From assembly GCA_027314915.1 (NCBI GenBank), contig DAHUZZ010000002.1, forward strand, positions 1 to 64,000: a DNA stretch of 64,000 nucleotides. Reading direction: 5' to 3'. Position numbers and translations under genes: made by a program. The notes below the pieces were generated by a model, which was given only the letters and a program-made list of their open reading frames with translations, had not been told where the DNA came from and did not search any database. The stretch comes from Thermoplasmata archaeon. GTDB taxonomy: Archaea; Thermoplasmatota; Thermoplasmata; Lutacidiplasmatales; UBA184. Shown piece by piece: positions 4,615-28,085 of this stretch (its first letter is position 1; each line of letters starts with the position of its first letter).

Positions 4615-5338
4615 GCTCCGTCGCCCCGGCACCGGACTCGGCGCCGACCCCACCCTCGTGGCCCGGGCGTTCCGCGAGCGGGTGCTGCCCTGCGGCATCG
4701 AGCCCATCAACCGGCTCGAGCGGATCGTGACGGCGAAGCACGAGGAGACCCGGAGGCTTTCGCGCGCTCCCGCCGAGGAGCTCCCGTCGCGGCTCCGACG
4801 GCTTCTCGAGACCGTGCCGGCGACCCGACCCCACCGGGACGGGCTCCTTCGCGAGACCCCGCCCGGGACGTTCCGGGAGATCGTGAGCGCGACGGGGGGC
4901 GGGCGTCTCGGGCCGCGGGACCTCGAGGAGGTCGCGGGCAGGCTCTCGGGCGCCCCGCTCGAGGTGCGCCGGGACCTCGCGGCCGAGCTGATCCACGCCT
5001 CCGCGCCGGACCGGGTCGCGCTCCTGGCCCGCTGGGTCTACCATCCGGCGCGGCGCACGGGGGTCCTCTGCGAGTTCGGCGGCCCGCCGCCCGAGGACTA
5101 TCCGGCGGCCCAGGCCCGCCTGGCCGAGGTCCGACTCGAGCTCGCGGAGCTCGGCTTCCCGTCCACCACCTTCGCCGGAGTGGATGTCCTGCTCGCGCTC
5201 ACCTACGCGGGCCGTCTGCAGGACGCGGTCGACCGGAGCTTCCAGGGCGGCGGGATCGAGCGGCTCCTGCCCGGCCCGTTCCCGCTCGCCACGATGATCC
5301 TGGGCGTACGAAGGAGGTTCGCCGATGCCGATCGTTGA
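4601..5338 (+). CDS. sHdr-associated hypothetical protein (position of 'hyp' in sHdr clusters)
   Basis: Conserved position between hdrA and hdrC2; overlaps both neighbours. Confidence 0.7.
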   Translation: MLGVELRRPGTGLGADPTLVARAFRERVLPCGIEPINRLERIVTAKHEETRRLSRAPAEELPSRLRRLLETVPATRPHRDGLLRETPPGTFREIVSATGGGRLGPRDLEEVAGRLSGAPLEVRRDLAAELIHASAPDRVALLARWVYHPARRTGVLCEFGGPPPEDYPAAQARLAEVRLELAELGFPSTTFAGVDVLLALTYAGRLQDAVDRSFQGGGIERLLPGPFPLATMILGVRRRFADADR

Positions 5339-6056
5339 GAAATCGCTCGTCCGGGTCGACCGTACCGAGAAGCTCGAGCTCGAGGGGATCGACGTCTCGG
5401 GGGACTGGAACACCTTCCTGCGGTCCCGGGTTTGGACCGACCTCGACGTCAAGGTGGCGGACTGGGTGCGGGCGCAGCCCGGGGGGGACACGATCGACCG
5501 CTGCTGGCAGTGCGGGACCTGCACCGCCGGCTGCTGCATGCACACCGACTTCGGGCTGACGGAGTTCAACCCGCGGTATTTCATCTACCTCGCCCAGATC
5601 GGCTACGAGGAGGAACTGCGCCGCTACGCCCACACGATCTGGCGCTGCGTCTCCTGCAACAAGTGCGTGGAGCGGTGCCCGAAGGGCGTGAAGGTCGAGG
5701 AGGTGGTCCATACCATCGGCAGCTACCTCGAACGGACCGGGGCCGCGCCCGAGAGCCCCGCCGACCGGTTCGACCGGGCGTACACGGAGAACCTCCTGAA
5801 TCGGGGGATCCTGGACGAAGCGGCCCTCTTCCGCACCTACGAGCGGCTCGAGGGCCGGAAGACGCCGACCCGCGAGCTCCTGCGGATGGGGCTCGCGCTC
5901 TTCACGAGCGGCCGGCTCCGCACGGGGCCGTTCGCCCACCGCACGCGCGGATGGGGGAAGATGCGCGAGGTGCTCCGGGCGAGGTTGGAGGAGGAGACCC
6001 GGCAGCGTCGCGTCCCGGTCCCCAAGCCCCCGGTCGGTGCCGGAGGGGGGCGATGA
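5325..6056 (+). CDS. hdrC2: sHdrC2, heterodisulfide reductase subunit C-like
   Basis: CWQCGTCTAGCC and CVSCNKCVERCP iron-sulfur motifs. Confidence 0.9.
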   Translation: MPIVEKSLVRVDRTEKLELEGIDVSGDWNTFLRSRVWTDLDVKVADWVRAQPGGDTIDRCWQCGTCTAGCCMHTDFGLTEFNPRYFIYLAQIGYEEELRRYAHTIWRCVSCNKCVERCPKGVKVEEVVHTIGSYLERTGAAPESPADRFDRAYTENLLNRGILDEAALFRTYERLEGRKTPTRELLRMGLALFTSGRLRTGPFAHRTRGWGKMREVLRARLEEETRQRRVPVPKPPVGAGGGR

Positions 6057-6988
6057 GCGCGAGCGCGGGGCGCGGCCCGAGCGACCCGGTCCCCGCCTAC
6101 TATCCGGGCTGCTCGTTGGATGGGCTCGGGAAGGCCTACGAGGTCACTTGCCAGCAGGTGCTCGACCGGCTCGGGCTCTCGCTCGACCGGATCGTGGACT
6201 ACAACTGCTGCGGCGCGACCGAGGTGAAGAACCTGAGCGAGGACGTCTCGGTCGCGCTGCCCGCGCGCAACCTGGCCCTCGCACGCTCCATGGACCGCCA
6301 CCAGGTCGTCGCCGCCTGCAACGGCTGCGTCTACTCCCTTGCCCGCGCGAACGACGCGGTCCAGGGCCCCGCGACCCGGGACCGGGTCAACGCGATGCTG
6401 ACCCAGGGGGGCGCGCCCGCCTACGACGGTAGCGCCTCGGTCCAGCACGTCCTCGAGTTCATCTACCAGCGGGCGGGGCCCGACCGGGTGCGCGCGGCGG
6501 TCCGACGGCCCCTCGCCGGGCTCACGGTCGCGCCGTACTACGGCTGCCTCTACACGCGACCGAAGCGGTACACGGGCGCGGGGAAGACGCCGGGCACCGA
6601 TGACCCGGAGCACCCCCACTTCCTGGACGAGCTCCTCGTGGCGTGCGGGGCGAAGATCGTCCCGGAGTTCTCCGCCAAGACGATCTGCTGCGGCGGCGGC
6701 CACGCGCTGAGCGACCTCGAGGTCTCCGTCGCCTTCAGCGCGTCGATCCTGAACGAGGCGACCCGCGCGGGCGCCGACCTCGTGGCGACGATCTGCCCGC
6801 TCGGCCAGATCAACATCGAGAACCACCTCGACCGCGTCCGGGCCGCCTACGGGCCCGAGGTGATCCGGCCCGTGGCCTACTTCACCCAGCTGATGAGCCT
6901 CGCCTTCGGCGCCTCGGTCCGCGAGGCCCGCCTCGCCGACAACTTCTCCCGACCGGATTCCTTATTGCGGGCCCGAGGGTTCCCCTAG
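6053..6988 (+). CDS. hdrB2: sHdrB2, heterodisulfide reductase subunit B-like
   Basis: YYPGCSLDG..., DYNCCGATE..., YYGCLYTRP..., TICCGGGHA CCG-domain motifs. Confidence 0.92.
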   Translation: MSASAGRGPSDPVPAYYPGCSLDGLGKAYEVTCQQVLDRLGLSLDRIVDYNCCGATEVKNLSEDVSVALPARNLALARSMDRHQVVAACNGCVYSLARANDAVQGPATRDRVNAMLTQGGAPAYDGSASVQHVLEFIYQRAGPDRVRAAVRRPLAGLTVAPYYGCLYTRPKRYTGAGKTPGTDDPEHPHFLDELLVACGAKIVPEFSAKTICCGGGHALSDLEVSVAFSASILNEATRAGADLVATICPLGQINIENHLDRVRAAYGPEVIRPVAYFTQLMSLAFGASVREARLADNFSRPDSLLRARGFP

Positions 6989-7000
6989 GGGAGTTCCACC

Positions 7001-7450
7001 ATGGCGATCCTGAACGGATGCGAGCTGCCCGAGGACCGGGCCTACTTCATCGAGCGTACGCAGATGACGTGGGCGATGGTCGAGGGGGACCGCGTGACCG
7101 TCGGGCTCACCGACCCGGCGCAGACGCGCGCCGGCAAGATCCTCCACGTGCGCGTGAAGGCGGCCGGGACCGTGCGCGAGCGGGGCAAGCCGATCGCGAC
7201 GGTGGAGAGCGGCAAGTGGGCCGGACCGGTCATGGCGCCGGTCTCGGGCACCGTCGTCGAGGCGAACGCGGAGGTCGAGAAGGACCCGACGCTCCTCAAC
7301 ACCGACCCCTACGGGCGGGGCTGGATCGTCCGCATGACCGCGACGAGCCCCGCCGAGCTCGCGTCGCTCCTCCGCGGCGAGGCCGCCCTGGCCCGGTTCA
7401 AGGAGATCCTCGAGCGCGACCAGATCCGGTGCGTCCGGTGCCAGGGGTGA
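7001..7450 (+). CDS. lbpA: Lipoate-binding protein (GcvH-like, LbpA)
   Basis: Lipoyl-domain motif 'GKPIATVESGKWAGPVMAPVSGTVVEANAEV'; directly follows hdrB2. Confidence 0.88.
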   Translation: MAILNGCELPEDRAYFIERTQMTWAMVEGDRVTVGLTDPAQTRAGKILHVRVKAAGTVRERGKPIATVESGKWAGPVMAPVSGTVVEANAEVEKDPTLLNTDPYGRGWIVRMTATSPAELASLLRGEAALARFKEILERDQIRCVRCQG

Positions 7451-7893: not shown

Positions 7894-9018
7894 ATGCCGG
7901 CGACCTGGCGCTGGCTCGACCTGGGCGCCGTCGACGGCGCCACGATGGTCAACCTGTTCGTGGCGCTCGCGGGTCCCGTGGGCGCCGGCCGGTCCCCGCC
8001 GACCGTGATCCTGCTCCATCCGCAGGCCCCCTTCGCGAACGTCGGGTTCCACCAGGAGGCCGAACGCGAGGTCGACGTGGAGCACTGCCGGGCGCAGGGG
8101 ATCCCCCTCGTCCGCCGCGTGGTGGGCGGTGGGGCGATCCTGGACGGACCGTGGGAGCAGGACTACATGGTCATCGTGCCCGCGGGCACCCCCGGGACCG
8201 AGGCGGGCATCGCGGCCTTCTACGAACGCTACCTCGAGCCCATCCGCGCGACGCTCGACCGCCTGGGGGTCCCGGCGGAGCGCTCCGGCGTGAACGATCT
8301 CGCCGTCCGCGGCCGGAAGGTCAGCGCCAACGGAGCGATGGCGCTCGAGGGCAGCTGGGTCCTCGTCGGCGACCTCCTCCTCGACCTCGACGTGCCGGCG
8401 ATGAGCCGGGTCCTGCGCGTCCCCGACGAGAAGTTCCGCGGGAAGCTCGCCCAGGGGATGGGCGAGTGGCTCACCTCGGTGCGCGCCGAGACGGGCCGGC
8501 TCCCCGGGCGCGAGGAGGTCGGCCACCTCCTGCGCGAGGAGTTCGCCCGACGGTTCGCGGTCGAGCTCGTCCCGGGGGTCCTCCTCCCCGAGGAGGGATC
8601 CCGGCTATCCGAGCTCGTGCGGACCCGCACGACGGACGACTGGACGTTCCAGAAGGACCGGGCCCACGGCGCCCTCGACCGCGCCCCGGCGGAGGGTCGC
8701 GCGGTGAAGATCTCGAACGAGGCGGTGATCGCGCGGATCGACCGGAAGGCCGGCAAGCTCCTGCGCGTCACGCTGCTGCACACCCACGACCGGGTCGTGG
8801 AGGTCCAGTTCTCCGGCGACTTCTTCACCCAGCCGTTCGACGGCCGGCTCGCCGAGCTCGAGGCGGCGCTCGTCGGCGTCCCGCTCCGGCCGGACGACCT
8901 GGCCGGGGCGGTGTCGGCATGGTTCGCGGGATCGAAGGTCCAGCTCATCGGGGCGGGCCCGGAGGACCTTGTCCGCTCCGTCCTCGACGCCGCCGCGCTG
9001 CCGCCCGCGTCGAGCTAG
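7894..9018 (+). CDS. Lipoate-protein ligase A-like with C-terminal LplB-like accessory domain
   Basis: 'RRVVGGGAILDGPWEQDYMV' and 'NDLAVRGRKVSANGAMALEGSWVLVGDLLLDLD'; C-terminal extension with 'KISNEAVIARIDRKAGKLLRVTLL'. Confidence 0.82.
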   Translation: MPATWRWLDLGAVDGATMVNLFVALAGPVGAGRSPPTVILLHPQAPFANVGFHQEAEREVDVEHCRAQGIPLVRRVVGGGAILDGPWEQDYMVIVPAGTPGTEAGIAAFYERYLEPIRATLDRLGVPAERSGVNDLAVRGRKVSANGAMALEGSWVLVGDLLLDLDVPAMSRVLRVPDEKFRGKLAQGMGEWLTSVRAETGRLPGREEVGHLLREEFARRFAVELVPGVLLPEEGSRLSELVRTRTTDDWTFQKDRAHGALDRAPAEGRAVKISNEAVIARIDRKAGKLLRVTLLHTHDRVVEVQFSGDFFTQPFDGRLAELEAALVGVPLRPDDLAGAVSAWFAGSKVQLIGAGPEDLVRSVLDAAALPPASS

Positions 9019-11648: not shown

Positions 11649-12797
11649 TCAGAACAGCGCCCGCGCCGTGAGGTCCCAGTACGTCCGGTTGTAGATCGTC
11701 TTGTTCCAGTAGTGGGCGAAGGAGGGGGTGGGCGGGTGCGGGGGGTGCAGGTAGTCGAACTTGATGTACGTCGCCTGCGAGAGCCCCGTCATGATCCAGC
11801 AGTAGACCCGGCCCTCGTACCGCGCCGTCGGCGTCTCGCCCCGCACCATCGACGCGACGTTCTGGGTGACGACCTCGGCCTCGTAGTCGGCGGTCGACCC
11901 GGCCTTCGAGATGGGGATGTTGGTCGCATCACCGAGGACGAAGATGTTCTCCTTCCCCTCGGCCTTCAGGCTGTACCGGTCCGTCGGGATCCAGTTCCCC
12001 TTGTCACCGAGTCCCGACGCGCCCACGAAGTCGGCGCCGCGGTGGGCGGGGATCGCGATCAGGAGGTCGTAGGGCAGGGTGTCCCCCTCGACGGCCTTGA
12101 TCGTCTTCGCGGCGGGGTCGATCTTGTCGACGTTGAACGGGACATGGATGCTGATGCCGCGCTCGCCCATGAGGCGTGTCATCGGCTGGGCGACCGTGTC
12201 GATCCCGAAGACCTTCGGGATCGGGTAGGTGTAGTGGATCTCGCACTTGTCGCGGATCCCCCGCCCGCGCAGGAAGTCGTCCAGCATGAACGTCACTTCC
12301 AGCGGGGCGACCGGGCACTTGTAGGGCATCCCGGCGACCGACACCACGATCCGGCCGCCGGTGAAGCCGTGCAGCGCGGCGCGCAGCTTCTTCGCGTTGC
12401 CGAGATCGTAGAAGCTGTGGGCGCCCTCGGCGAAGCCCGGCGTCAGCTCGGGGTGGAGGACGGAGCCGCTCGAGAGGACGAGGAGGTCGTAGCCGAGCTC
12501 CTTGCCGCCCTTGAGCAGGAGCTTGTTCGCGGCCGCATCGACCTTCTCGACTTCCGCCCGGACGAGCTGCACCGAGCGGTGCAGGAGCTGGCTCTCGTCG
12601 CGCTGCGTCTCCTCCGGTCGCATCTTCTCGAAGACGACCATGAGGTAGCCCGGCTGGTAGGCGTGGACCCCCTCCCGGTCGACCAGCTGGATCGAGACCT
12701 GCCCGCTCGCCACCTCCGCGTCGAGCGCCCGGCGAATCCGGTTCGCCACCGTCGTTCCGCCGATGCCGCCTCCGACCACCACGACCCGTTTCGCCAC
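11649..12797 (-). CDS. sqr: Sulfide:quinone oxidoreductase / FCSD-flavoprotein-like FAD oxidoreductase
   Basis: 'VVVVGGGIGGTTVANRIRRAL', 'AYQPGYLMVVF', 'MPYKCPVAPLEVTFMLDDFLR', 'IFVLGDATNIPISKAGSTADYEAEVV'. Confidence 0.82.
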   Translation of the reverse strand: MAKRVVVVGGGIGGTTVANRIRRALDAEVASGQVSIQLVDREGVHAYQPGYLMVVFEKMRPEETQRDESQLLHRSVQLVRAEVEKVDAAANKLLLKGGKELGYDLLVLSSGSVLHPELTPGFAEGAHSFYDLGNAKKLRAALHGFTGGRIVVSVAGMPYKCPVAPLEVTFMLDDFLRGRGIRDKCEIHYTYPIPKVFGIDTVAQPMTRLMGERGISIHVPFNVDKIDPAAKTIKAVEGDTLPYDLLIAIPAHRGADFVGASGLGDKGNWIPTDRYSLKAEGKENIFVLGDATNIPISKAGSTADYEAEVVTQNVASMVRGETPTARYEGRVYCWIMTGLSQATYIKFDYLHPPHPPTPSFAHYWNKTIYNRTYWDLTARALF

Positions 12798-12813: not shown

Positions 12814-13092
12814 TTACTCGTGCGTCTTCTGGACCACGTACCGGTCGAACCCCGAGTCCGATCGGAACTCGACCAACCGATGCCCCGCCTTCTCGAGCCA
12901 CATCGGCACGTCCTTCCGGGAACCCTCGTCGCTCGAGAGCAGCTCGAACTCCGTCCCCACCGGCTCCTCCCGGATGACGCGTACGAGCTCCATGAGGGGA
13001 CCGGGACACCAGCTGCCCCGCGCGTCGACGATGAGCCGCGAGGCCGCCGGAGGGTTCGTCGCCGTGCCCGGGGGCGGGTCGGCGCCGCTCAT
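12814..13092 (-). CDS. tusA: TusA-family sulfurtransferase
   Basis: 'LIVDARGSWCPGPLMELVRVIREEPVGTEFELLSSDEGSRKDVPMWLEKAGH' (CPxP motif). Confidence 0.88.
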   Translation of the reverse strand: MSGADPPPGTATNPPAASRLIVDARGSWCPGPLMELVRVIREEPVGTEFELLSSDEGSRKDVPMWLEKAGHRLVEFRSDSGFDRYVVQKTHE

Positions 13093-13526
13093 ATGAAGTA
13101 GGTCACGTTCGCCGACCTCGTCCGGTCCACGAACGTCGCCACCCCCGTCACCCCGTCCACGATCGGCTCGAGGTCGCCCGGCGCGAGCCCGAGGACGTCC
13201 ATCGACTGCGAGCACGCGTAGATGTGGAGCTCGCCGATGGACTTGGCCATCTGGAGGATCGCCCTCCAGGAGGGCGCCTTCTTCGCGCGGAGGGCCGCTT
13301 CGAGGCGGCTCCCCTCCTCGCCGTGCCCGGGGCTCACCACGGCCGGCTCCGATCCGGAGCTCTTCCGGAACGCGAGCAGCCCCCAGTAGCTCGCGAAGAC
13401 GTCGACGCGCATCCCCATCGCCACCGCCCCGCTCACGAGGGTGGCGAACGGGAGCAGCTTGTCGGCCGAGTTCTCGGTGAGGACGACGGCCATCTGCTCC
13501 GCGGGGGAGGCCCCGACATCCCCCAC
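13089..13526 (-). CDS. DsrE2/DsrE3-like protein
   Basis: 'MAVVLTENSADKLLPFATLVSGAVAMGMRVDVFASYWGLLAF... HIYACSQSMDVLGL'. Confidence 0.82.
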   Translation of the reverse strand: MGDVGASPAEQMAVVLTENSADKLLPFATLVSGAVAMGMRVDVFASYWGLLAFRKSSGSEPAVVSPGHGEEGSRLEAALRAKKAPSWRAILQMAKSIGELHIYACSQSMDVLGLAPGDLEPIVDGVTGVATFVDRTRSANVTYFI

Positions 13527-13563: not shown

Positions 13564-14022
13564 TCAGATGAACAGGGTGAGGGCGTCCGGCCGGGACGCG
13601 AGTTCGAGGTAGGTGCTCGCCCCGATGATGTCGTCGACCTCGTTGACGAGGCTCGTCTTCGTCAGCCCGAACATGTCCATGGTGGGCGAGCAGGCGTGGA
13701 TGTGGACCCCGGCCTGCTTCGCCTGCTGCATGAACTGCTCGACCGTCGGGAACTTCGAGGTGATCGCCTTCCGGATCTCCGGCGGGAAGACCTCCATCGA
13801 CTTCTCCCGTCCCTGGGGGGTCAGCAGCTGCATCCCCCAGAACGTGAAGTACATGTGGGCGTCCATCCCGAGCGCACGCGCGGTGGTCGCCAGGATCAGG
13901 GAGGGGTAGGCCATGTCTGCCCCGCCCTTCGAGACGACCAGGATCAGGGACTTCTTGCCCTCCTGCTTCGCGTGTTCGATCGTCGACGTCGCCTTGGTGT
14001 CGGGAGCTGCTCCTGCTGTCAT
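13564..14022 (-). CDS. DsrE3-like protein
   Basis: 'LILVVSKGGADMAYPSLILATTARALGMDAHMYFTFWGMQLL... HIHACSPTMDMFGL'. Confidence 0.85.
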   Translation of the reverse strand: MTAGAAPDTKATSTIEHAKQEGKKSLILVVSKGGADMAYPSLILATTARALGMDAHMYFTFWGMQLLTPQGREKSMEVFPPEIRKAITSKFPTVEQFMQQAKQAGVHIHACSPTMDMFGLTKTSLVNEVDDIIGASTYLELASRPDALTLFI

Positions 14023-14047: not shown

Positions 14048-14290
14048 TCACTTGTGCTCGAGGACGAATCGGTAGGTCCCCGCGTCCTCGGAGTTCTCCC
14101 GGAGGGGGTGCCCCGTACGCTTGGAGAAGGCCACGAAGTCCGAGGGGGCGGCCGGGTCGTCGGCGAGCACCTCGAGCAGCTCGCCCGACTTCAAGGTCTC
14201 GAGCATCGAGCTGGCCTTGAGGATCGGCATGGGACAGAACAGGCCCCGGGCGTCGAGATGGGCGGAGGAGTTCGATGGAGACACTGACAC
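14048..14290 (-). CDS. tusA: TusA-family sulfurtransferase (GTG start inferred at 14290; the track starts at TTG 14341)
   Basis: 'HLDARGLFCPMPILKASSMLETLKSGELLEVLADDPAAPSDFVAFSKRTGH'. Confidence 0.88.
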   Translation of the reverse strand: MSVSPSNSSAHLDARGLFCPMPILKASSMLETLKSGELLEVLADDPAAPSDFVAFSKRTGHPLRENSEDAGTYRFVLEHK

Positions 14291-14327
14291 ACCGTAGCGC
14301 GGGGAAGCGCCGGGGCGTATTTTGAGT

Positions 14328-14339
14328 TTACGATTGTCC
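14328..14339. promoter_or_regulatory. Operator-like motif GGACAATCGTAA (minus strand) before the tusA-dsrE-sqr-lbpA-lpl operon
   Basis: Immediately upstream of TATA-like CTCAAAATACG (minus strand), about 40 nt before the inferred start. Confidence 0.5.
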
Positions 14340-14347
14340 AACGAGGA

Positions 14348-15769: not shown

Positions 15770-16011
15770 CAGCGCTCCGGGGCCGCCCCTTCGAGGCGCC
15801 AGCCGGCCCGGGTGCAGACGTAGATGCGGCCGTCGATCTCGACCCGGCCGCCCAGGTCGACCGAGCTGTCGTAGAAGAGCCGGTTCAGGACCGCGACGTG
15901 GGAGGGGTCCTCCGGCCCGGCGCCCGACTCCGCCCGTTCCGCTTCGAAGGGGTCGCCGACCGCCCGGAGGATCCGGACCCTCGAGGGGCGCGGAGCGTCG
16001 CCCGCGCTCAC
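15769..16011 (-). CDS. Hypothetical small protein
   Basis: 80 aa ORF overlapping both neighbours by 1-4 nt, consistent with translational coupling. Confidence 0.5.
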   Translation of the reverse strand: MSAGDAPRPSRVRILRAVGDPFEAERAESGAGPEDPSHVAVLNRLFYDSSVDLGGRVEIDGRIYVCTRAGWRLEGAAPER

Positions 16012-16931
16012 CGGGACCGGTCCGTGCCCGCCGCGGGGCCGTCGGTACGGTCGGCGGGCATTCCGCGGGCGCGCCGGAGCCGGTCGAGCAGGAGCCGCAC
16101 CCGGCTCGCGAGCAGCGCCGTCTCCGGGGTGTGCAGCTCCTCGATCCGCCCGGCGTCGGCCAGCGCCGGCAGGCCCGGGAACACGGGCAGGCTCCCGAGG
16201 TACGGGATTCCCATCCGGGTCGCGAACTCCGGGCCGCGCGACGGGCCGAACAGCTCGATGCGCTCCCCGTGCGGGCAGGTGAGGTAGGCCATGTTCTCGA
16301 TGAGCCCGAGGATCGGCGCGTCAAACGTCTTCGCCATCGTCGCCGTCTTGGCCACGACCTCGGCCGAGAGCTCCGTCGGGGCGGTCACGACCACGACCCC
16401 ATCGGGGTCCAGCGACTGGAAGACGGTCATCGGCGCATCGCTCGTCCCCGGCGGGAGGTCGACCACGAGGTAGTCGAGCTCGGGCCAGTCGGTGTCCTTG
16501 AACAGCCCGCGGATGGCGCTGTTGATCATCGGGCCCCTCCAGATGAGCGGGATCTGGGTCGCCGCCGTGACCGAGGCCATCGACATCACCGCGATCCCTC
16601 CGGCGGTGCGCAACGGCTGGATGCGGGCGCCGTCCGGCGTCAGACGGGGGACCTCGTGGAATCCGAAGACGCGGGCCATCGAAGGTCCGGTGATGTCGGC
16701 GTCGAGGATACCGACGCGCGCGCCGTCCCGGTGGAGCTCGTTCGCGAGGAGCGCGGAGACGAAGGTCTTGCCGACCCCGCCCTTGCCCGAGAGCACGGCG
16801 AGCACCGCCCGGATCCGGGTACGGTCGAGCCGGCCGATGGGGCTCTCGGCGTCGCTCGGACGGATCGCGCCCGGACGGCCGCCCGCCATCGGGAGCGCCA
16901 CGGGGCCCGCGGATCCGGAGGGGGACCCCAT
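16008..16931 (-). CDS. Mrp/NBP35-type P-loop ATPase (Fe-S carrier family)
   Basis: 'AVLSGKGGVGKTFVSALLANEL', 'ILDADITGPSMARVFG', 'LPPGTSDAPMTVFQ', 'ENMAYLTCPHGERIELFG'; start inferred at 16931. Confidence 0.88.
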   Translation of the reverse strand: MGSPSGSAGPVALPMAGGRPGAIRPSDAESPIGRLDRTRIRAVLAVLSGKGGVGKTFVSALLANELHRDGARVGILDADITGPSMARVFGFHEVPRLTPDGARIQPLRTAGGIAVMSMASVTAATQIPLIWRGPMINSAIRGLFKDTDWPELDYLVVDLPPGTSDAPMTVFQSLDPDGVVVVTAPTELSAEVVAKTATMAKTFDAPILGLIENMAYLTCPHGERIELFGPSRGPEFATRMGIPYLGSLPVFPGLPALADAGRIEELHTPETALLASRVRLLLDRLRRARGMPADRTDGPAAGTDRSR

Positions 16932-17042
16932 CGTCGGTGCAACCTCCCCGGCTACGTAACTCCTCGCCGGACCACGGGCCGAACTAGAGCAATTATACGG
17001 GAGGCGTATTGCCGGGCCGTCGACCCAGGGGGACGACGCGGT

Positions 17043-17231
17043 ATGGACGAGAGGGCTCGGGTGCGATTCGAGTGCCGTTCGCTGGGGAATGCGTGCGAGT
17101 GGGCGCTCGCGGCCCGCACGACCGAGGACGTCCTCGAGCGGGTCCGGGACCATATGCGGTGCGCCCACGCTCAGCCCGAGCTCCCCGCGGACCTCGCCCG
17201 CCAGGTCCGGGCGTCCGTTCGGTCCGGCTGA
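17043..17231 (+). CDS. DUF1059-like small protein
   Basis: 'VRFECRSLGNACEWALAARTTEDVLERVRDHMRCAHA' Cys/His pattern. Confidence 0.6.
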   Translation: MDERARVRFECRSLGNACEWALAARTTEDVLERVRDHMRCAHAQPELPADLARQVRASVRSG

Positions 17232-17248: not shown

Positions 17249-17542
17249 ATGGTCGGGCGCCTCTCCATCGCGGATGCGCTCGGGGCCGATGCCTTCGACA
17301 CCGACTCGATCGCGCACCTTGCGCTCTCGGACCCCCAGCTCTGCGTCACCTGCGCCCGCCGGCCGTGCATCCAGGTCTGCCCGGCCGAGGTCTACCACTG
17401 GGAGGAGGGGCGTCTGCGGATCAGCTACGAGAACTGCCTCGAGACCGGGGCGTGCCGGATCGCCTGCCACGTGCTCGGGAACCGGGCCCTCGTGTGGAAC
17501 TATCCGGCCACCGGCCATGGCGTGCAATACCGCTACGGCTGA
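17249..17542 (+). CDS. fixX: FixX-like ferredoxin
   Basis: 'PQLCVTCARRPCIQVCPAEVYHWEEGRLRISYENCLETGACRIAC' is the FixX/ETF-QO ferredoxin signature. Confidence 0.85.
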   Translation: MVGRLSIADALGADAFDTDSIAHLALSDPQLCVTCARRPCIQVCPAEVYHWEEGRLRISYENCLETGACRIACHVLGNRALVWNYPATGHGVQYRYG

Positions 17543-17581
17543 GCGGTCCGGAGCTCCGACCGGCCCCGGCCCAAAGAATTT

Positions 17582-17593
17582 GGACAATTGTCG
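17582..17593. promoter_or_regulatory. Operator-like motif GGACAATTGTCG before aprBA
   Basis: 'TTTGGACAATTGTCGAAAGGCTTTTCC'; same core as 1385 and 14328. Confidence 0.6.
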
Positions 17594-17689
17594 AAAGGCT
17601 TTTCCTGAGCCACCCCTACCCGCGTCCGTGCATCCCCGTGGCACGGCCACCGGCCCGCGCGGCGGGGGGCCCCGGCGGTAGGAGAACGG

Positions 17690-18136
17690 ATGCCGACCTT
17701 TGTGCGGACGGACAAGTGCAAGGGCTGCATGGAATGCGTTCGGATCTGTCCGAGCGACATCATGCACATCGACCCCGAGCAGGGGCGCGCCTACAACATC
17801 GAACCGGCCATGTGCTGGGAGTGCTTCGCCTGCGTGAAGGCCTGCCCCGAGGCGGCGATCGAGGTCCGCGGCTACGCGGACTTCGCCCCGCTCGGCCACT
17901 CCGTCCAGCCGACGCGGACCCCCGACAAGATCGAGTGGAAGATCCGCATGCGGAACGGGGACCAAAAGGAGTTCACCTTCCCGATCCGCACGACCCCGTG
18001 GGGCTCGATCCGGGCGCCCCAGGAAGGGGCGTCCCCGAGCGCGGAGGCCCGGTCCGGCGAGCTGCTCTCGTTCGAACCGGACTACCTGGCGGTCGAAGCG
18101 TTGCCGACCCTCCCCCGGAGACCCACCACGGCGTAG
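17690..18136 (+). CDS. aprB: Adenylylsulfate (APS) reductase beta subunit
   Basis: 'DKCKGCMECVRICPSDIMHIDPEQGRAYNIEPAMCWECFACVKACPEAAIEVRGYADFAPLGHSV... PIRTTPWGSI'. Confidence 0.95.
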   Translation: MPTFVRTDKCKGCMECVRICPSDIMHIDPEQGRAYNIEPAMCWECFACVKACPEAAIEVRGYADFAPLGHSVQPTRTPDKIEWKIRMRNGDQKEFTFPIRTTPWGSIRAPQEGASPSAEARSGELLSFEPDYLAVEALPTLPRRPTTA

Positions 18137-18152
18137 GAGGGAGGAGGGGCCC

Positions 18153-19994
18153 GTGAGCGAACCCGGAGCGGAACCCGTCACGCACGAGGTCGACTGCGAC
18201 CTCCTGATCATCGGCGGCGGCTTCGCCGGCTGCGGCGCCGCCTTCGAGGCCCGGTACTGGGGGCGCGACCTCAAGGTCGTGGTCGCCGAGAAGGCGGCGA
18301 TCGAGCGGAGCGGCGCCGTCGCGCAGGGGCTGAGCGCGATCAACTGCTACATGGGGATGCGCTGGAACGAGAACCAGCCCGAGGACTTCGTCCGGTACGT
18401 CCGCAACGACCTCATGGGACTCTCCCGCGAGGACCTCGTCTACGACATCGCGCGCCACGTCGACTCCACGGTGCACCTGTTCGAGGAGTGGGGTCTTCCG
18501 ATCTTCACCGACCCCCAGACCGGCCGGTACGTCCGCGAGGGCCGCTGGCAGATCATGATCCACGGCGAGTCGTACAAGCCGATCATCGCCGAGGCGACCC
18601 GGAAGTCGGTGGACGAGGTCCACGAGCGGATCATGGTCACGCACCTGCTCCCGGCCGCCGACGACCCCCACCGGGTCGCCGGCGCCGTCGGGTTCAGCGT
18701 CCGGGACGGCTCCTTCTACGTCTTCCGGGCCAAGGCGGTCATCGTGGCGGCGTCCGGCGCCTCCCACATCTACCGGCCGCGCTCGGCGGGCGAGGGCGCC
18801 GGAAGGACGTGGTACCCGCCCTGGGCGAGCGGCTCGGCCTACGCGCTGCTCATCCAGATGGGGGCCGAGATGACCCAGATGGAGAACCGGCTCGTCGTCA
18901 CGCGCTTCAAGGACGGCTACGGTCCCGTCGGGGCGTGGTTCCTCCTCCTCAAGGCGATCGCGACGAACGCCGCCGGCGAGAGCTACGAGACCTCTCGGCT
19001 CCCCGAGCTGCGGGAGCGCGTCGGCGCCTACGCCGACGCGAAGCCGATGCCGACCTGCCTGCGGAACCACCTCATGCTGCAGGAGATCCTCGCCGGTCGG
19101 GGACCCATCCTCCTGCACACCGAGCGGGTGCTGGACACGCCCGAGAAGGAGTCCATCGGCTGGGAGGACTTCCTGAACATGACCATCGGGCAGGCGGTGA
19201 CTTGGGCCTCCCAGGGCATCGAGCCGAAGAGCGTGCCCTCCGAGCTCATCCTCTCCGAGCCCTACGTGATGGGTTCCCATGCGGTCTGCGCGGGCGCGTG
19301 GACGAGCGGACCCGGCGACCTTTCCGAAGCGGAGTACCGGTGGGGGTACAACCGCATGACCACGGTGGCGGGCCTCTTCGGTGCGGGCGACACCGTCGGG
19401 GGTTCGGCGCACAAGTTCTCGAGCGGATCGTACACCGAGGGGCGGCTCGCCGCGAAGGCGGCGGTCGCGTTCCTCCGGGACCATCCGGATCCGGTCCCCG
19501 TCCGGGCGGCCGACGTGGAGGGGTTCCGGCGGAAGATCTTCGCCCCGCGGGAACACTGGGAGGTGGAGGGCCCCCAGGTCACCGCGGGCACGGTCCATCC
19601 GGAGGTGCTCTTCCCCGACCAGGGATTGACCCGTCTCGAGAAGATCATGGACGAGTACGGCGGGGGGGTCAGCGCGAACTACTCGACCAGCCGCAACCTC
19701 CTCGAGCGCGGGCTCGGCCACCTGGCGGCGCTGCGCCACGACATGTCCCGGCTCGGCGCGCGCGACCTGCACCAGCTCCAGCGGGGCTGGGAGCTCGACC
19801 ACCGGCTCTGGACCGCGGAGGCCGTCCTGCGCCATACGCTCTTCCGGGAGGAGACCCGCTGGCCCGGCTACTACTACCGGGCCGACTTCCCGCACGTGGA
19901 CGATGCGCGCTGGAAGTGCTTCGTGAACTCGACCTACGCTCCCGCCACGGGAGAGTGGCAGGTGTTCACCCGGCCCTACCGCGCGCTCTTCTAG
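18153..19994 (+). CDS. aprA: Adenylylsulfate (APS) reductase alpha subunit
   Basis: 'CDLLIIGGGFAGCGAAFEARYWG', 'AINCYMGMRWNENQPEDFVRYVRNDLMGLSREDLVYDIARHVDSTVHLFEEWGLPI', 'FGAGDTVGGSAHKFSSGSYTEGR'. Confidence 0.95.
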   Translation: MSEPGAEPVTHEVDCDLLIIGGGFAGCGAAFEARYWGRDLKVVVAEKAAIERSGAVAQGLSAINCYMGMRWNENQPEDFVRYVRNDLMGLSREDLVYDIARHVDSTVHLFEEWGLPIFTDPQTGRYVREGRWQIMIHGESYKPIIAEATRKSVDEVHERIMVTHLLPAADDPHRVAGAVGFSVRDGSFYVFRAKAVIVAASGASHIYRPRSAGEGAGRTWYPPWASGSAYALLIQMGAEMTQMENRLVVTRFKDGYGPVGAWFLLLKAIATNAAGESYETSRLPELRERVGAYADAKPMPTCLRNHLMLQEILAGRGPILLHTERVLDTPEKESIGWEDFLNMTIGQAVTWASQGIEPKSVPSELILSEPYVMGSHAVCAGAWTSGPGDLSEAEYRWGYNRMTTVAGLFGAGDTVGGSAHKFSSGSYTEGRLAAKAAVAFLRDHPDPVPVRAADVEGFRRKIFAPREHWEVEGPQVTAGTVHPEVLFPDQGLTRLEKIMDEYGGGVSANYSTSRNLLERGLGHLAALRHDMSRLGARDLHQLQRGWELDHRLWTAEAVLRHTLFREETRWPGYYYRADFPHVDDARWKCFVNSTYAPATGEWQVFTRPYRALF

Positions 19995-20031
19995 GGACGG
20001 CCCGAGGGCGGGGACGGGTCGAGGGGGAGGC

Positions 20032-21042
20032 GTGGTCGACTGGGGGGAGCGGCTCCGCGGCGACCCCACGGTGCTCGCCGGAGCGCCTTCCGGGGCGCTC
20101 CACGAGGTCCTGGACGAGGTGGCGGCGGCCTTCGACCGCAGACCCTGGCCGCCCCTCGTCGAGGTCGGCTCCGACCGGCCCATCCAGGTGATCGGCGACA
20201 GCCACGGGGACTATCCGGCGGTCCACGCCGCGCTCTCCTTCGCCCGCCGCGGCGACCCGCCCGACCGGTTCATCGGTCTCGGGGACTACGTCGACCGCGC
20301 GACCCGGAGCCAGCCGGACCCGAAGGCGCTCCCGAGCGGTTCGGTGTGGAACGCGGCCTACCTGTTGTCCTGGACCGCCCACGCCCCGGACGAGGTGATC
20401 CTGCTCCGGGGGAATCACGAGGCGACGCGCCAACTCCCGGTCCCCGGGCCGACGCTCCTGCGGGAGCTCCGCCGGGCCTACCCCGCGGAAGAGGCGCTCG
20501 GCCTGTGGGAGCGGCTCGTCGGCCTCCTCGAACGGCTGCCCCTCGCCGCGCGGACCGAGCACGGCGTCTTCCTCGCCCACGGGGGGATCCCCCCGGCGGG
20601 CCGGCTCGACCCGGCGGGCTGGAACTCCGGGGACCTCGAGCTCCTCGAGGGGCTCCTCTGGGGCGACCCCGACCTCGACTACGAGGACCGGTCCGTGGGA
20701 CATCCCTACACCGTGGAGGAGTTCGCCGCGTTCCTCCGCGCGATCGGTTGCCGCGCGATGATCAAGGGCCACGCGCCCGGCCACTCGGGCCGGGCCATCT
20801 ACGGCGGCACCCTGCTCACGGTGCACACGAGCGACCTGTTCGCGACCCACGGCGAGGGGGGCGTCCTCCTCGCGGAGATCCCTCCCCTGGGCCGGTTCCG
20901 GGAGCTCGACGACGTCGTCCTCCGCGCCTGGGGCGGGACGACGTGGACGCGCCGACCGATCCGCGGCCTCGTCCGGGGGGCCGCGGCGACCGAGCCGGGA
21001 TCGTCACGGGCCGAGCGGGTGCTCTCCGGGAGCGGGGCCTGA
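20032..21042 (+). CDS. Calcineurin-like / PP1-PP2A-type metallophosphatase
   Basis: GDSHGD, GDYVDR, GNHEA and GH motifs; GTG start. Confidence 0.85.
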   Translation: MVDWGERLRGDPTVLAGAPSGALHEVLDEVAAAFDRRPWPPLVEVGSDRPIQVIGDSHGDYPAVHAALSFARRGDPPDRFIGLGDYVDRATRSQPDPKALPSGSVWNAAYLLSWTAHAPDEVILLRGNHEATRQLPVPGPTLLRELRRAYPAEEALGLWERLVGLLERLPLAARTEHGVFLAHGGIPPAGRLDPAGWNSGDLELLEGLLWGDPDLDYEDRSVGHPYTVEEFAAFLRAIGCRAMIKGHAPGHSGRAIYGGTLLTVHTSDLFATHGEGGVLLAEIPPLGRFRELDDVVLRAWGGTTWTRRPIRGLVRGAAATEPGSSRAERVLSGSGA

Positions 21043-21102
21043 AGGGTTCGGGGGCGAGCGCGCTCGGGCGGACGCACGGAGATCCTCACAGATCACGAAA
21101 CC

Positions 21103-21894
21103 ATGGCCGAAACGTTGCGCATCGGGGTGGCGGTCAAGCACGGCGTCGATGTCACGCTCACCCGGGCCGATCGGGCCACCGGGCGGGTCGATCTTGCGGG
21201 GGCGCCCCGGAAGACGAGCGACTTCGACAAGAACGCGGTCGAGGAGGCGGTGCGCCTCCGGGAGAAGCACGGTGGGACCGTCACGGCGATCACCGTCGGC
21301 GGCCCGGCGGCGCGCGAGGCGCTGCGGGAGGCCCTGGCGATCGGAGCCGATGAGGCGGTGCTGGTCACCGCCGAGAGCTGGTCCACCTGGGACACCCGCG
21401 CCGTCGCCCGGCTCCTCGCCGGCGCCTACCGGACGCTGGGCGGGTTCGACCTCTTCCTCGTCGGCGAGGGGAGCACCGACCATTTCGGCGGGCTGGTCGG
21501 CCCGCGGATGGCCGGCGAGCTCGGCATCGCCGAGGTCGCGAGCGTCCGCAAGGTCACGATCGAGGGGCGGGCGGTGCTCGCCGAGAAGGACCTCGAAAAG
21601 GAGGTCGAGGTCGTGCGGGCGAAGTTCCCCGTCGTCCTGACCGTCGGCCAGGAGATCAACACCCCCCGGCTTCCCACCTTCATGGCGAACCTCAAGGCCT
21701 CGAAGAAGGAGGCGAAGGTGCTCGCCCCCCCGGACGTCGGGCTGGCGCCCGACTCCCTGGCACCGGTCGTCGTGGTCGAGAAGGTGGCGGTGCCCGAGAT
21801 CCCCCGGAAGCAGGTCGCCCTCGCCGGCGCCTCCGCCGAGGAGATCGCGAAAGGGCTCCGCGAGGCGCTGCGTGCGGAGGGGCTCGTGCCATGA
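21103..21894 (+). CDS. fixA: Electron transfer flavoprotein beta subunit (FixA/EtfB)
   Basis: 'DFDKNAVEEAVRLREKHGGTVTAITVGGPAAREALREALAIGADEAVLVT'; 'VEVVRAKFPVVLTVGQEINTPRLPTFMANLKA'. Confidence 0.93.
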   Translation: MAETLRIGVAVKHGVDVTLTRADRATGRVDLAGAPRKTSDFDKNAVEEAVRLREKHGGTVTAITVGGPAAREALREALAIGADEAVLVTAESWSTWDTRAVARLLAGAYRTLGGFDLFLVGEGSTDHFGGLVGPRMAGELGIAEVASVRKVTIEGRAVLAEKDLEKEVEVVRAKFPVVLTVGQEINTPRLPTFMANLKASKKEAKVLAPPDVGLAPDSLAPVVVVEKVAVPEIPRKQVALAGASAEEIAKGLREALRAEGLVP

Positions 21895-22841
21895 GCCCCG
21901 AGCGCATCGTCGCCGTCTCCGAGGAGCCCGCGCTCCTGCCCGACCTCGTCCGGGTGGGCCGCAGCGTGGGCGCGGATCCCTCCGACCGGGTCGTGGCCGT
22001 ACTCCTTCCGGGGGTGCCCGGCGACGCGGCGGACCGCGCCCGCGCGGCGGGCGCCCACGAGGTCCACCGGCTGGTCGCGCCCGCGAGCACCGACCCCCAC
22101 GTCCTCACGTCGGCCCTCGAGGAAGTGGTCCGCACGCTCGCCCCGACGCTCATCCTCGTCGGTTCGACCAAGCGGGGGCGGGAGCTCGCCGGCCGGCTCG
22201 CGGGACGACTCGACCTGCCCGCGGCGAGCGGCGTCACGGCGCTCCGGACCGAGGGCGGAGCGCTGCTCCTCGACCGCGAGGCGCTCAGCGGCAATGCGGT
22301 CGCGACCGAGCGGATCGAACGCCGGCCGGCCGTCCTCGCGCTGCTCCCCGGCACGACCGCCCCGTCCCCCTCCGTCGCCCCGCCCGGGCCGGCCGAGGAC
22401 CGGACCGTCGCTCCCGTCCCGCCGCTCACCGAGACCGTGGAGGTGCGCGCGAAAGCGGGCGGGCAGCTCGAGATCGAGAAGGCGGACCGGATCGTCACGA
22501 TCGGCCGCGGCCTCAGGAAGAAGGAGGACCTCCCCCTCATCGAAGCGCTCGCCCGGGCGCTCGGCGCCGAGGTCGGATGCACCCGGCCGCTCGCGGCCGA
22601 CGCCGGATGGCTCTCCGACGACCACTGGATCGGGCTCACGGGCCACCGGGTCCACCCGAAGCTCTACGTCGCGGTCGGGGTCTCGGGCGCGGTCCAGCAC
22701 CAGGTCGGGATGCGCTCCGCGCAGGTCGTGGTCGCGGTCAACAAGGACCCGAACGCCCCGATCTTCGCCCAGGCGGACTACCGGATCGTCGGCGACCTCT
22801 ACCAGATCGTCCCGGCGCTGACGAAGGTGTTCTCGACCTGA
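21891..22841 (+). CDS. fixB: Electron transfer flavoprotein alpha subunit (FixB/EtfA)
   Basis: 'WIGLTGHRVHPKLYVAVGVSGAVQHQVGMRSAQVVVAVNKDPNAPIFAQADYRIVGDLYQIVPALTKV'. Confidence 0.95.
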   Translation: MSPERIVAVSEEPALLPDLVRVGRSVGADPSDRVVAVLLPGVPGDAADRARAAGAHEVHRLVAPASTDPHVLTSALEEVVRTLAPTLILVGSTKRGRELAGRLAGRLDLPAASGVTALRTEGGALLLDREALSGNAVATERIERRPAVLALLPGTTAPSPSVAPPGPAEDRTVAPVPPLTETVEVRAKAGGQLEIEKADRIVTIGRGLRKKEDLPLIEALARALGAEVGCTRPLAADAGWLSDDHWIGLTGHRVHPKLYVAVGVSGAVQHQVGMRSAQVVVAVNKDPNAPIFAQADYRIVGDLYQIVPALTKVFST

Positions 22842-22865
22842 GCCGTCGGCGGGGCCGGGCGGCCC

Positions 22866-24155
22866 TCACAGCGTGCGCATCGCCTGCAGCAGGTCGCGGG
22901 CGAGCGTGAGGGTCGACACCTTCCCGGCACGCACCGAGCGGAGCACGCCGTTCAGGTGCGGCCGCTCCGAGCCGTCGATGAAGTACGCACGGTGCAGGAG
23001 ACTAGAGAGCATCTCCGGGTAGAGGCCGTAGAGGCGCCGGTTGCGGAACACCTTGGGGGCGCGGCGGTACGTCTGGAGGTCGCGGAGGACGAAGCTCGCG
23101 GCCAGGCGTTCCCCGTAGCGCGCGAGGTACTTCGCCGAGCCGTCGTGGTCGCGGCTCGCCTCCGCGGCGACCTCGCCCGCCAGCCGGCCGGACTCGAGCG
23201 CGAAGTCCATCCCCCGGAGGGTGAGGCCGGCGTTGACGAACATCTGCCCGGCGGACCCGGCGACGAGATACCCGTCGCCCGAGAGCGCCGGGAGCGCCTC
23301 GCGCCCCCCCTCGTTCACCACGCAGCCGCTGTACTCGAGGAGCGTCCCCCCCTCGAGGTACCGGGCGATCAGGGGGTGCTGCTTGAACTCCTCGAGGACC
23401 TCGTACATCGCCACGCCGCGCGCGAGGACCGACCCGAGGTTGAGGATCATCCCGACGGAGAGGGTGTCGCGGTTCGTGTACAGGAACCCGCCGCCTTCCA
23501 CGCCGGCCGGCAGGCCGGTCGCGGCCATCTGGAACCCCTCGTTCCCGCGGAGCTGGAACCGCCGTTCGACCTCGCCCGGCGGAAGCCCGATCACCTGCTT
23601 CACGCCGATGCCGACCGTCTCGGGCGCGAGCTCCGGGGCGAGCCCGGCCCCCCGCGTGCTGGTGGCGTTGAACCCCTCCGCGACCACGGTGACCCGGGCC
23701 CCGAGCACCTCGGAACCGAGCCGGATGCCGACCACGCGGCCGTTCTCCCGGGCGAGCCCGTCGACCCGGGAGCCGTACACGACGGTGGCCCCCGCGGACT
23801 CGGCCTTCGCGGCGAGCCAGGGATCGAGCCGCGCGCGAAGGACGCTGAACGAGTTGAACGGCGGCGCCGCGAACGCGGCGTCGTAGTAGTCGAGGCTCGT
23901 CGCCTGGGTCCGGGTGAGCAGCGTGACGACGTTGCGGGAGATCGCCCGCTCCACCGGGGAGGGCTCCTCCTCCCAGAACCGGGGGAACATCCGGCCGAGC
24001 GCGTGCGTGTACAGCAGCCCGCCCGAGAGGCCCTTCGAACCGGACCGCGCCCCCCGCTCGACGAGGACCACCTGGGCCCCGGCCCGGGCCGCGGCGTAGG
24101 CGGTCGCCGCACCGGCGAGGCCCGCCCCCACCACCGCGACGTCGACCTGGTCCAC
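22866..24155 (-). CDS. fixC: FixC-like ETF:quinone oxidoreductase flavoprotein (GTG start inferred at 24155)
   Basis: 'VDVAVVGAGLAGAATAYAAARAGAQVVLVERG', 'GGLLYTHALGRMFP', 'YLVAGSAGQMFVNAGLTLRGMDFALESGRLAGE'. Confidence 0.9.
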   Translation of the reverse strand: MDQVDVAVVGAGLAGAATAYAAARAGAQVVLVERGARSGSKGLSGGLLYTHALGRMFPRFWEEEPSPVERAISRNVVTLLTRTQATSLDYYDAAFAAPPFNSFSVLRARLDPWLAAKAESAGATVVYGSRVDGLARENGRVVGIRLGSEVLGARVTVVAEGFNATSTRGAGLAPELAPETVGIGVKQVIGLPPGEVERRFQLRGNEGFQMAATGLPAGVEGGGFLYTNRDTLSVGMILNLGSVLARGVAMYEVLEEFKQHPLIARYLEGGTLLEYSGCVVNEGGREALPALSGDGYLVAGSAGQMFVNAGLTLRGMDFALESGRLAGEVAAEASRDHDGSAKYLARYGERLAASFVLRDLQTYRRAPKVFRNRRLYGLYPEMLSSLLHRAYFIDGSERPHLNGVLRSVRAGKVSTLTLARDLLQAMRTL

Positions 24156-25917: not shown

Positions 25918-26565
25918 GTGGAGCTCGAAACGCTCAAGGGGATCGTGCCGGCGGTGCTCGCGACGCTCGGCGCCCAGGAGTCCGTCTACTGCGAGCACGG
26001 CATCATGCTCTACAAGGACCCGAGCGTGGGCGTGGGGCGCAAGACCATCCAGTCCGGCGGGCTGTTCGGGACGCTCAAGCGCTCGACGCTGGGCGGCGTG
26101 CCGTTCTTCCTCGCGGAGTTCACGGGGCCCGGCAGCGTCGCCTTCTCGCGCGATGGCGTCGGCGAGATCCGCGACTTGGAGCTCGCCCCCAACGAGGTCC
26201 TCGACGTCGCGGAGGGATCGCTGCTCTGCGCCGAGAACCGGATCCCCTACGACATGCTCTACGTCAAGGGGACGAACCGACCGGGCCGGATGATGGGGTT
26301 CTGGATGGACCGGCTGACCGGTCCGGGGAAGATCGCCCTCCACGGCTTCGGCAACATCATCTCCATGACGCTCGCGCCCCAGGAGAAGGTCACCTGCGAC
26401 TTCGGCGCCCTGCTCTTCAAGAGCGGGAGCGTCACGGCGCGGGCCCTGAACCTTCCCTTCGGCTCCGGACTGCTCGGCCGGCTCGAAGCCTACGAGGTGC
26501 TCGAGCTGATCGGCCCGGGCAAGGTCGCGCTCCAGAGCATCGATCCGAAGAGGGTCCTGGGCTGA
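25918..26565 (+). CDS. AIM24-family protein
   Basis: 'EFTGPGSVAFSRDGVGEIRDLELAPNEVLDVAEGSLLC... GPGKIALHGFGNIISMTLAPQEKVTCDFGALLF'. Confidence 0.82.
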   Translation: MELETLKGIVPAVLATLGAQESVYCEHGIMLYKDPSVGVGRKTIQSGGLFGTLKRSTLGGVPFFLAEFTGPGSVAFSRDGVGEIRDLELAPNEVLDVAEGSLLCAENRIPYDMLYVKGTNRPGRMMGFWMDRLTGPGKIALHGFGNIISMTLAPQEKVTCDFGALLFKSGSVTARALNLPFGSGLLGRLEAYEVLELIGPGKVALQSIDPKRVLG

Positions 26566-26579
26566 GGAGGAGAACGGAG

Positions 26580-26777
26580 ATGCCGGTTCCCGAGGAGTTC
26601 GTCAAGAAGCGGACCGAGGTCACGATCAGCCGGGCGAGCCTGAAGGAGCTCTCCTGCAAGGGCTGCGGGGCGCCGATCCAGGGCCAGAACATCTCCGGCG
26701 GCTATGCGCGCTGCGAGTACTGCGGCGGCACCTTCGCCCTCGACGTGGGCGCCTCCGAGAAGGGGGGTTCCGCGTGA
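26580..26777 (+). CDS. Small zinc-ribbon protein embedded in AIM24 cluster
   Basis: 'LSCKGCGAPIQGQNISGGYARCEYCGGTF'. Confidence 0.7.
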   Translation: MPVPEEFVKKRTEVTISRASLKELSCKGCGAPIQGQNISGGYARCEYCGGTFALDVGASEKGGSA

Positions 26778-27424
26778 AGGCGGAGACCGTCGGGGCGATC
26801 ACCCCCGCGGTCCTCGTCGAGCTCCGGGCCGGCGAGAAGATCCTCGCGGCCCACGAGATCATGCTCCACATGGACGGCCCGGTCAAGGTCGCCCGCAAGA
26901 CGATGAAGCAGCTCGGGGTGAGCCGCACGCACCTCATGGGGATGCACGCCCGGGGGGACGCGGAGGAGAACTACTTCTTCGCGGAGTTCGAGGGACCGGG
27001 CAACGTCACCTTCTCCCGCGACAAGGGCGGCGAGGTCCGGGTCCTCCAGCTTCCGCCGGGGGAGACGATCCGGCTGCGGTCGGGCCACCTGATCTGCTTC
27101 GACGAGAGCGTCCGATACTACCCGATGGTCCTCGCCCAGTGGGTCGTCCAGCGCGGGAACGACCAGGAGACCGAGTACCTCTTCGCCGACGAGCTGACCG
27201 GCCCGGGGACGGTCGTCTTCCAGTCCTACGGGAACATCCTGAGCTTTACCCTCAAGCCGGGGGAGATGATCCGCGCCTCCCCCGAGTCGCTCCTCCTGAG
27301 CGCCCCCACGAACGGGGTCCAGATCGACTGGCTCGCCCGGCCGAACTTCGGCCCCGGGACCGCCTTCCGGCCCGTGCTCGATGTCGCCGGCCCGGGCCTC
27401 GTCATGGTGCACAGCGGGGTCTAG
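26774..27424 (+). CDS. AIM24-family protein
   Basis: 'AEFEGPGNVTFSRDKGGEVRVLQLPPGETIRLRSGHLICFDESVRY'. Confidence 0.82.
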   Translation: MKAETVGAITPAVLVELRAGEKILAAHEIMLHMDGPVKVARKTMKQLGVSRTHLMGMHARGDAEENYFFAEFEGPGNVTFSRDKGGEVRVLQLPPGETIRLRSGHLICFDESVRYYPMVLAQWVVQRGNDQETEYLFADELTGPGTVVFQSYGNILSFTLKPGEMIRASPESLLLSAPTNGVQIDWLARPNFGPGTAFRPVLDVAGPGLVMVHSGV

Positions 27425-27428
27425 GACG

Positions 27429-28085
27429 ATGGAGATCAAGGTCCAGGGCGAGTTCGTCCCCGTCGCCCTTGTCGCGCTCGCGCCGGGGGAGGAGATCTAC
27501 TGCGAAGGGGGCCTCATGGTCTACTCCGACCCGTCGGTCCGCACCGCCGTCCGCGCGCTCACCCAGGGCGGCTTCGGGCAGGTGCTCCGCCGGACGATGG
27601 TCGGCGGCCTCCCGTTCTTCTTCCATGCGTTCGTGGGCCCGGGCTACGCGGCGTTCAGCCGGTTCACCCCGGGCGAGGTCCGGACCCTCGAGCTCGCCCC
27701 GGGCCAGACCGTCGACATCGCCGAGCACTCGATGCTGCTCGCCTCGAGCTCCGTCCAGTACTCGACCTCCTACGTCGCCGGCACGGGCCGCATCGGCCGG
27801 ATGATCGGGTTCTGGCTCGACCGCCTGACCGGCCCGGGCGTCATCGCCTACCACGGCCACGGCAACATCCTGGGCTTCGACCTGAAGCCGGGCGAGACGA
27901 TGGACATCGACCATGGCGCGCTCCTGCGCAAGGACCCGACCGTCAACGTGCGGGCGTTCAACCAGCCCCTCGGGGGCGGCCTCACCGGCCATGCGCTGAG
28001 CTTCGAGGCGCTCCACGTCGAGGGACCCGGGCGCCTCGAGCTCCAGACGGTCGACCCGACGGCGGGCCGGTCCGCGTCGGGCTGA
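27429..28085 (+). CDS. AIM24-family protein
   Basis: 'FVGPGYAAFSRFTPGEVRTLELAPGQTVDIAEHSMLLAS... TGPGVIAYHGHGNILGFDLKPGETMDIDHGALL'. Confidence 0.82.
   Translation: MEIKVQGEFVPVALVALAPGEEIYCEGGLMVYSDPSVRTAVRALTQGGFGQVLRRTMVGGLPFFFHAFVGPGYAAFSRFTPGEVRTLELAPGQTVDIAEHSMLLASSSVQYSTSYVAGTGRIGRMIGFWLDRLTGPGVIAYHGHGNILGFDLKPGETMDIDHGALLRKDPTVNVRAFNQPLGGGLTGHALSFEALHVEGPGRLELQTVDPTAGRSASG

Follow-up and report, generated by a model that had tools for sequence, protein, structure and literature searches.

A fixX gene in the AprM position beside the APS reductase genes of a Thermoplasmata archaeon: a candidate Fix/ETF route from sulfite oxidation to the quinone pool

In a 64,000-nucleotide stretch of DNA from a Thermoplasmata archaeon (contig DAHUZZ010000002.1, hereafter the window), the aprBA genes for adenosine 5′-phosphosulfate (APS) reductase are embedded among homologues of fixA, fixB, fixC and fixX, which all lie together within positions 17249-24155. 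We give a probability of roughly 0.5 to the reading that FixCX, with or without the electron-transferring flavoprotein (ETF) EtfAB, is the quinone outlet of AprBA and replaces AprM there. The original prediction, made from the sequence alone, had proposed such a Fix/ETF:quinone oxidoreductase (ETF:QO) outlet, and this part of it is supported by gene content and order, the absence of AprM and Qmo, the co-occurrence of fix and apr genes, the loss of the AprM loop and a second Fix set, distinct from this one, in the vicinity of beta-oxidation genes. No paper describing a Fix/ETF-linked APS reductase was found in the open full-text literature that we searched, and text searches on the sulfur-oxidising heterodisulfide reductase-like (sHdr) system together with ETF and APS reductase yielded nothing direct.

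The layout predicted, with FixX before aprBA, EtfB and EtfA after it and FixC on the opposite strand, was confirmed for every gene named. FixX1 (17249-17542, forward strand) is an EtfX-like ferredoxin of 97 residues with seven cysteines; it scores 38.5 bits against the NCBIfam FixX model PRK15449, below the cut-off, and its top match in the PDB is Thermotoga maritima EtfX (7KOE_D, 77.7 bits). The gene ends 147 bp before aprB, which encodes the iron-sulfur subunit (17690-18136, forward; TIGR02060, 178.8 bits against a cut-off of 135.65) and is followed by aprA for the flavin adenine dinucleotide (FAD) subunit (18153-19994, forward; TIGR02061, 919.8 bits against 641.75), whose product matches Archaeoglobus fulgidus AprA (2FJA_A) at 716 bits. 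Both proteins thus pass the equivalog models for dissimilatory APS reductase. The FixA-like EtfB1 (21103-21894; PF01012, 120 bits) and the FixB-like EtfA1 (21891-22841; PF00766 and PF01012) are encoded on the forward strand, and FixC1, an ETF:QO flavoprotein, on the reverse strand (22866-24155, the longest open reading frame (ORF) extending to 24230). FixC1 falls below the cut-offs of NF007450 and NF007542 (about 350 and 333 bits), its top PDB match over the full length is T. maritima EtfC (7KOE_C, 224 bits), and the quinone-binding domain ETFQO_UQ-bd (PF21162) was recognised at 33.2 bits, above its cut-off of 27.7.

The window comes from a metagenome-assembled genome (MAG) of 1.85 Mb that is 84% complete. 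The original prediction had noted that no qmo or aprM gene flanks aprBA, and this holds genome-wide: fixX is found directly upstream of aprBA where aprM might stand, an AprM profile gave no match in this 84%-complete MAG, and a QmoA query against it recovered the window sHdrA and short weak fragments only, with no Qmo. The AprM profile gave zero matches across the AprA-positive genomes of the window's family as well. For comparison we took the 80 loci of named genomes whose AprA is nearest to that of the window. Of these, 73 are outside the family, and their AprM-linked AprA proteins are 62-72% identical to the window AprA. The gene aprM immediately precedes aprB in 71 of these 73 loci, Sysuiplasma, Nitrososphaerota and numerous Proteobacteria included; the remaining two are cut by a contig end (L064) or have an inverted aprB (L100). 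Inside the family, fixX occupies that position in 24 of the 25 genomes where FixX1 and AprA occur together, at a distance of 9-16 bp in the genus g7 and 131-222 bp elsewhere. Recurring in 24 family genomes, the arrangement is not a matter of chance.

Changes on the surface of AprB accompany the loss of AprM. A charged loop after Cys-B13 has been proposed as the docking site of Qmo and an elongated, mostly negative loop between beta8 and beta9 as that of AprM, and, by a suggestion in the same account, Asp-B11 holds the potential of cluster II low (PMC2211403). We aligned 16 Fix-type and 24 AprM-type AprB sequences, the A. fulgidus sequence being matched against 1JNR_B. The Qmo loop is absent in all 16 Fix-type proteins, and the best-fitting site for the AprM loop is two residues shorter in all of them and of full length in all 24 AprM-type proteins; from the alignment, this shortened site appears to be the published beta8-beta9 loop. 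Residue B11 is Asp in 24/24 AprM-type sequences, whereas all 16 Fix-type ones have Lys or Gln there, the window AprB having Lys.

The co-occurrence of these genes was examined in 103 genomes of the family, among which AprA was found in 35, FixX1 in 30, FixC1 in 26, EtfB1 in 22 and the HdrB of sHdr (scored as a homologue of the window protein at 2261-3580) in 21. All but one of the 22 EtfB1 genomes have AprA (Fisher 1e-11), as do 25 of the 30 FixX1 genomes (Fisher 2e-11), these values being descriptive and no proof, since they are uncorrected for kinship. In the AprA tree, the Fix-type sequences fall in one clade (100/100), within which one group of five rows without Fix is nested.

The sHdr-LbpA pathway would supply sulfite, which AprBA would oxidise with AMP to APS, and Sat, encoded elsewhere in the genome (contig C74, outside the window), would convert APS to sulfate and ATP. 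Two electrons would leave AprBA through the [4Fe-4S] clusters of AprB for a dedicated, non-bifurcating FixABCX1 set, reach FixX1 with or without EtfAB as an intermediary, and pass to the FAD of a membrane-associated FixC1 and on to quinone. In this scheme, physical contact, the direction of flow, the point of entry (FixX or EtfAB) and quinone reduction are what we infer. A narrower version, which we hold only tentatively, is that this constitutes a third membrane link of APS reductase, where electrons would pass from AprB directly to FixX and then to a non-bifurcating FixC, AprM having been replaced once in an archaeal lineage together with the loss of its loop and of Asp-B11.

Several observations weigh against FixCX as the outlet of AprBA. 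The strand of fixC opposes that of etfBA in the window, and hence the set is not a single operon. Ten AprA-positive family genomes lack FixX1, and the AprA sequences of four of these make up a clade nested within the Fix clade, so that this type of AprBA can persist without FixX1. Three family AprB from genomes without FixX1 share the loop shortening and the change at B11 (to Lys or Arg); the two changes therefore accompany the loss of AprM and by themselves do not reveal FixX as the new partner. Conversely, five genomes have FixX1 and lack AprA, EtfB1 being absent in all five, and the Fix label changes just twice along the AprA tree, so its independent origins are few. To these must be added that etfAB belongs to the definition of type II sHdr clusters (PMC11582611) and that the sHdr HdrB is present in 17 of the 22 EtfB1 genomes.

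The last two points lead to the main rival, which we regard as doubtful: EtfAB-FixCX would serve sHdr, electrons from the oxidation of LbpA-bound sulfane sulfur passing from sHdrA through EtfAB and FixC to quinone, and AprBA would be a mere neighbour with another acceptor. Where EtfBA-FixC is separated from apr, it occupies the opposite end of the shared sHdr-Apr island, adjacent to sHdr: EtfBA-FixC (G080, G165) or FixC alone (G057, G242) directly precedes the sHdr genes. However, four genomes of g7 (G209, G213, G275, G287) retain etfBA-fixC-fixX-aprBA without the HdrB marker of sHdr, which favours Apr over sHdr as the partner, and in Sysuiplasma and FK5/YP4 relatives the same sHdr genes adjoin aprM-aprBA with no Fix set nearby. 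The position of fixX moreover tracks aprB and not hdr, and the window sHdr, whose C2 and B2 are encoded separately, is of type I. The original suggestion that sHdr might be the electron donor is accordingly less favoured. An intermediate explanation, which we find unlikely, makes FixCX a single quinone reductase fed from two sides: sulfite electrons would arrive from AprB by way of FixX, and those of sHdr or another dehydrogenase by way of EtfAB. It would account for fixX staying beside aprB while etfBA-fixC shifts between the apr and shdr ends of the island, and in T. maritima EtfABCX electrons do pass the EtfX clusters on their way to quinone (PMC10734219). Against such a hub, EtfBA1 is retained in g7 without sHdr, and FixX1-FixC1 occurs in genomes with neither EtfB1 nor AprA, so that other donors exist.

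The Fix set could also serve acyl-CoA or carnitine-type dehydrogenation and stand beside aprBA by chance, as would suit the placement of EtfBA1 as sister to Escherichia coli FixAB/YdiQR (100/98), proteins whose roles are tied to carnitine and acyl-CoA. Nonetheless, the genome holds a second set, FixC2-EtfBA2, at C1:34.5-38 kb. At a distance of several kb from it are genes that, judged by their sequence, encode enoyl-CoA hydratase-like and acyl-CoA dehydrogenase-like proteins. Contig C66 carries a second FixX (FixX2), which most family genomes have, and C11 a third EtfBA. The apr-linked set is thus not the sole ETF:QO set of the genome, the one that could be tied to fatty acids is a different paralogue, and the apr linkage has outlasted rearrangement in 25 genomes, all of which makes a role in acyl-CoA metabolism very improbable. 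Finally, the original prediction had allowed for bifurcation, in which FixABCX would make low-potential ferredoxin alongside quinone reduction. The four-subunit make-up resembles that of Azotobacter vinelandii FixABCX and T. maritima EtfABCX, with both FixX and FixC finding their top match in 7KOE. However, of the motifs that define bifurcating group 2 ETFs, RXGV, RPXFGG and SPTXV (PMC10734219), neither RXGV nor RPXFGG was found in any of the 11 EtfBA1 examined, nor was the GDTAQ loop that bifurcating reference ETFs possess, and in the tree EtfBA1 lies outside the bifurcating clade of Clostridioides difficile, Acetobacterium woodii and Rhizobium etli. By tree and motif, EtfBA1 thus classifies as non-bifurcating and not as group 2; bifurcation by the window Fix set looks unlikely from these sequences, so much so that we rejected it and leave it hardly any probability.

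Comparison with the closest known systems sets the Fix-linked arrangement apart from each of them. With the AprM-linked APS reductases of lineage I of sulfur-oxidising bacteria (sat-aprMBA of Allochromatium vinosum) it shares the sulfite-oxidising kind of AprBA, an AprB without the Qmo loop, a slot for a single gene just upstream of aprB and a related AprA. It differs in that the window genome has no AprM, a FixX ferredoxin fills the slot, the AprM loop is shortened and Asp-B11 is changed to Lys or Gln. With QmoABC-linked enzymes it would have in common a cytoplasmic AprBA whose link to the quinone pool is made by Fe-S flavoproteins, as proposed here, whereas it lacks both Qmo and the KGX(D/E)(K/R) loop of AprB. 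T. maritima EtfABCX and A. vinelandii FixABCX offer the same four subunits and a route from EtfX through the FAD of EtfC to menaquinone, unlike which the window EtfBA is not of group 2, FixX has seven cysteines instead of eight and the set is linked to apr. E. coli FixABCX/YdiQRST has the closest EtfBA by tree and the closest FixC family by hidden Markov model score, but the window set is linked to sulfur oxidation genes and not to carnitine or acyl-CoA, and its FixX has one more cluster motif. Type II sHdr clusters (shdrC1B1AHB3-etfAB) likewise combine etfAB and shdr in one island; in the window, by contrast, sHdr is of type I, its C2 and B2 being separate, and the island also contains fixCX and aprBA; the g7 set has no sHdr.

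FixX1 lacks the cysteine that corresponds to Cys64 of T. maritima EtfX, a ligand of the proximal cluster, so that its motif CLE[T/L]GAC provides three of the four cysteines of the full motif; the missing residue is present in FixX2 and in the FixX of E. coli and Rhizobium. We considered the loss as an adaptation to Apr and dropped the idea, as FixX from six further Thermoplasmata families shows it too, in several cases within ordinary Fix sets. In many Thermoplasmata families (loci L230-L241), as in the window, FixX has seven cysteines, the second cysteine of CLECGTC being replaced by Leu, Thr or Met, and the eight-cysteine FixX2 coexists with it in the window's family. The loss is a trait of a FixX subfamily, and the seven-cysteine FixX perhaps carries a [3Fe-4S] cluster. 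Charge complementarity between FixX1 and AprB was also rejected, since the net charge of FixX1 ranges from -2 to +3 without any pattern.

Some loci of the family are organised differently. Five (L113-L116 and L120) carry aprBA of the same clade with neither FixX1 nor AprM nearby and adjoin ABC transporter genes and 2-oxoacid dehydrogenase-like genes. Four others (L181, L182, L184, L185) hold FixX1-FixC1 pairs in genomes without AprA or EtfB1, and pieces of a sat gene near L182 are a possible remnant of a lost apr island. A second, diverged aprBA (AprA 64%, AprB 45%) was found where the sHdr cluster begins in L147 (G161:C12:34000-53900), a relative that also has a Fix-linked aprBA.

Upstream of fixX, the type I sHdr cluster (1150-7450, forward strand; Pfam and NCBIfam HdrB) comprises C1 (1150-2244), B1 (2261-3580, so named by gene order), sHdrA (about 3583-4611), C2 (5325-6056), B2 (6053-6985) and LbpA (7001-7450), all on the forward strand; C2 and B2 are separate ORFs in place of the fused sHdrB3 of type II, although etfAB is still in the island. 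Between it and fixX lie the lipoate:protein ligase of the sHdr system (7894-9018, forward; PF21948, 107 bits) and, on the reverse strand, a sulfide:quinone reductase-like protein (11649-12797; NF049943, 354 bits, below cut-off) nearest to the selenoprotein subtype of type III, two DsrE-like sulfur carriers (13089-13526, assigned from its gene neighbours and its presence across the islands, and 13564-14022, PF13686) and TusA (14048-14341; PF01206). A gene for a NUBPL/ApbC-type Fe-S carrier P-loop NTPase (16008-17168, reverse; PF10609, 249 bits) is divergent from fixX in most family islands outside g7. Between aprA and etfB, the original prediction had passed over a calcineurin-like metallophosphoesterase (20032-21042, forward; PF00149, 59 bits), which is kept in most family islands at about 47-69% identity and was not observed in g7. 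Its substrate might be AMP, APS or 3′-phosphoadenosine 5′-phosphate. Three adjoining genes at 25918-26565, 26774-27424 and 27381-28085 encode paralogue-like proteins of about 215-235 residues that cluster together within this locus only.

The membrane delivery of sulfite electrons from APS reductase is settled only for Qmo, and there in outline. If FixCX is indeed the outlet of AprBA, a natural replacement of AprM by the well-studied Fix/ETF:QO would show what AprM must do, and a soluble, purifiable system would be available for testing it. Sulfite oxidation would then join the jobs of ETF:quinone oxidoreductases, and the Fix-linked AprBA would describe how energy is conserved in sulfur-oxidising Thermoplasmata.

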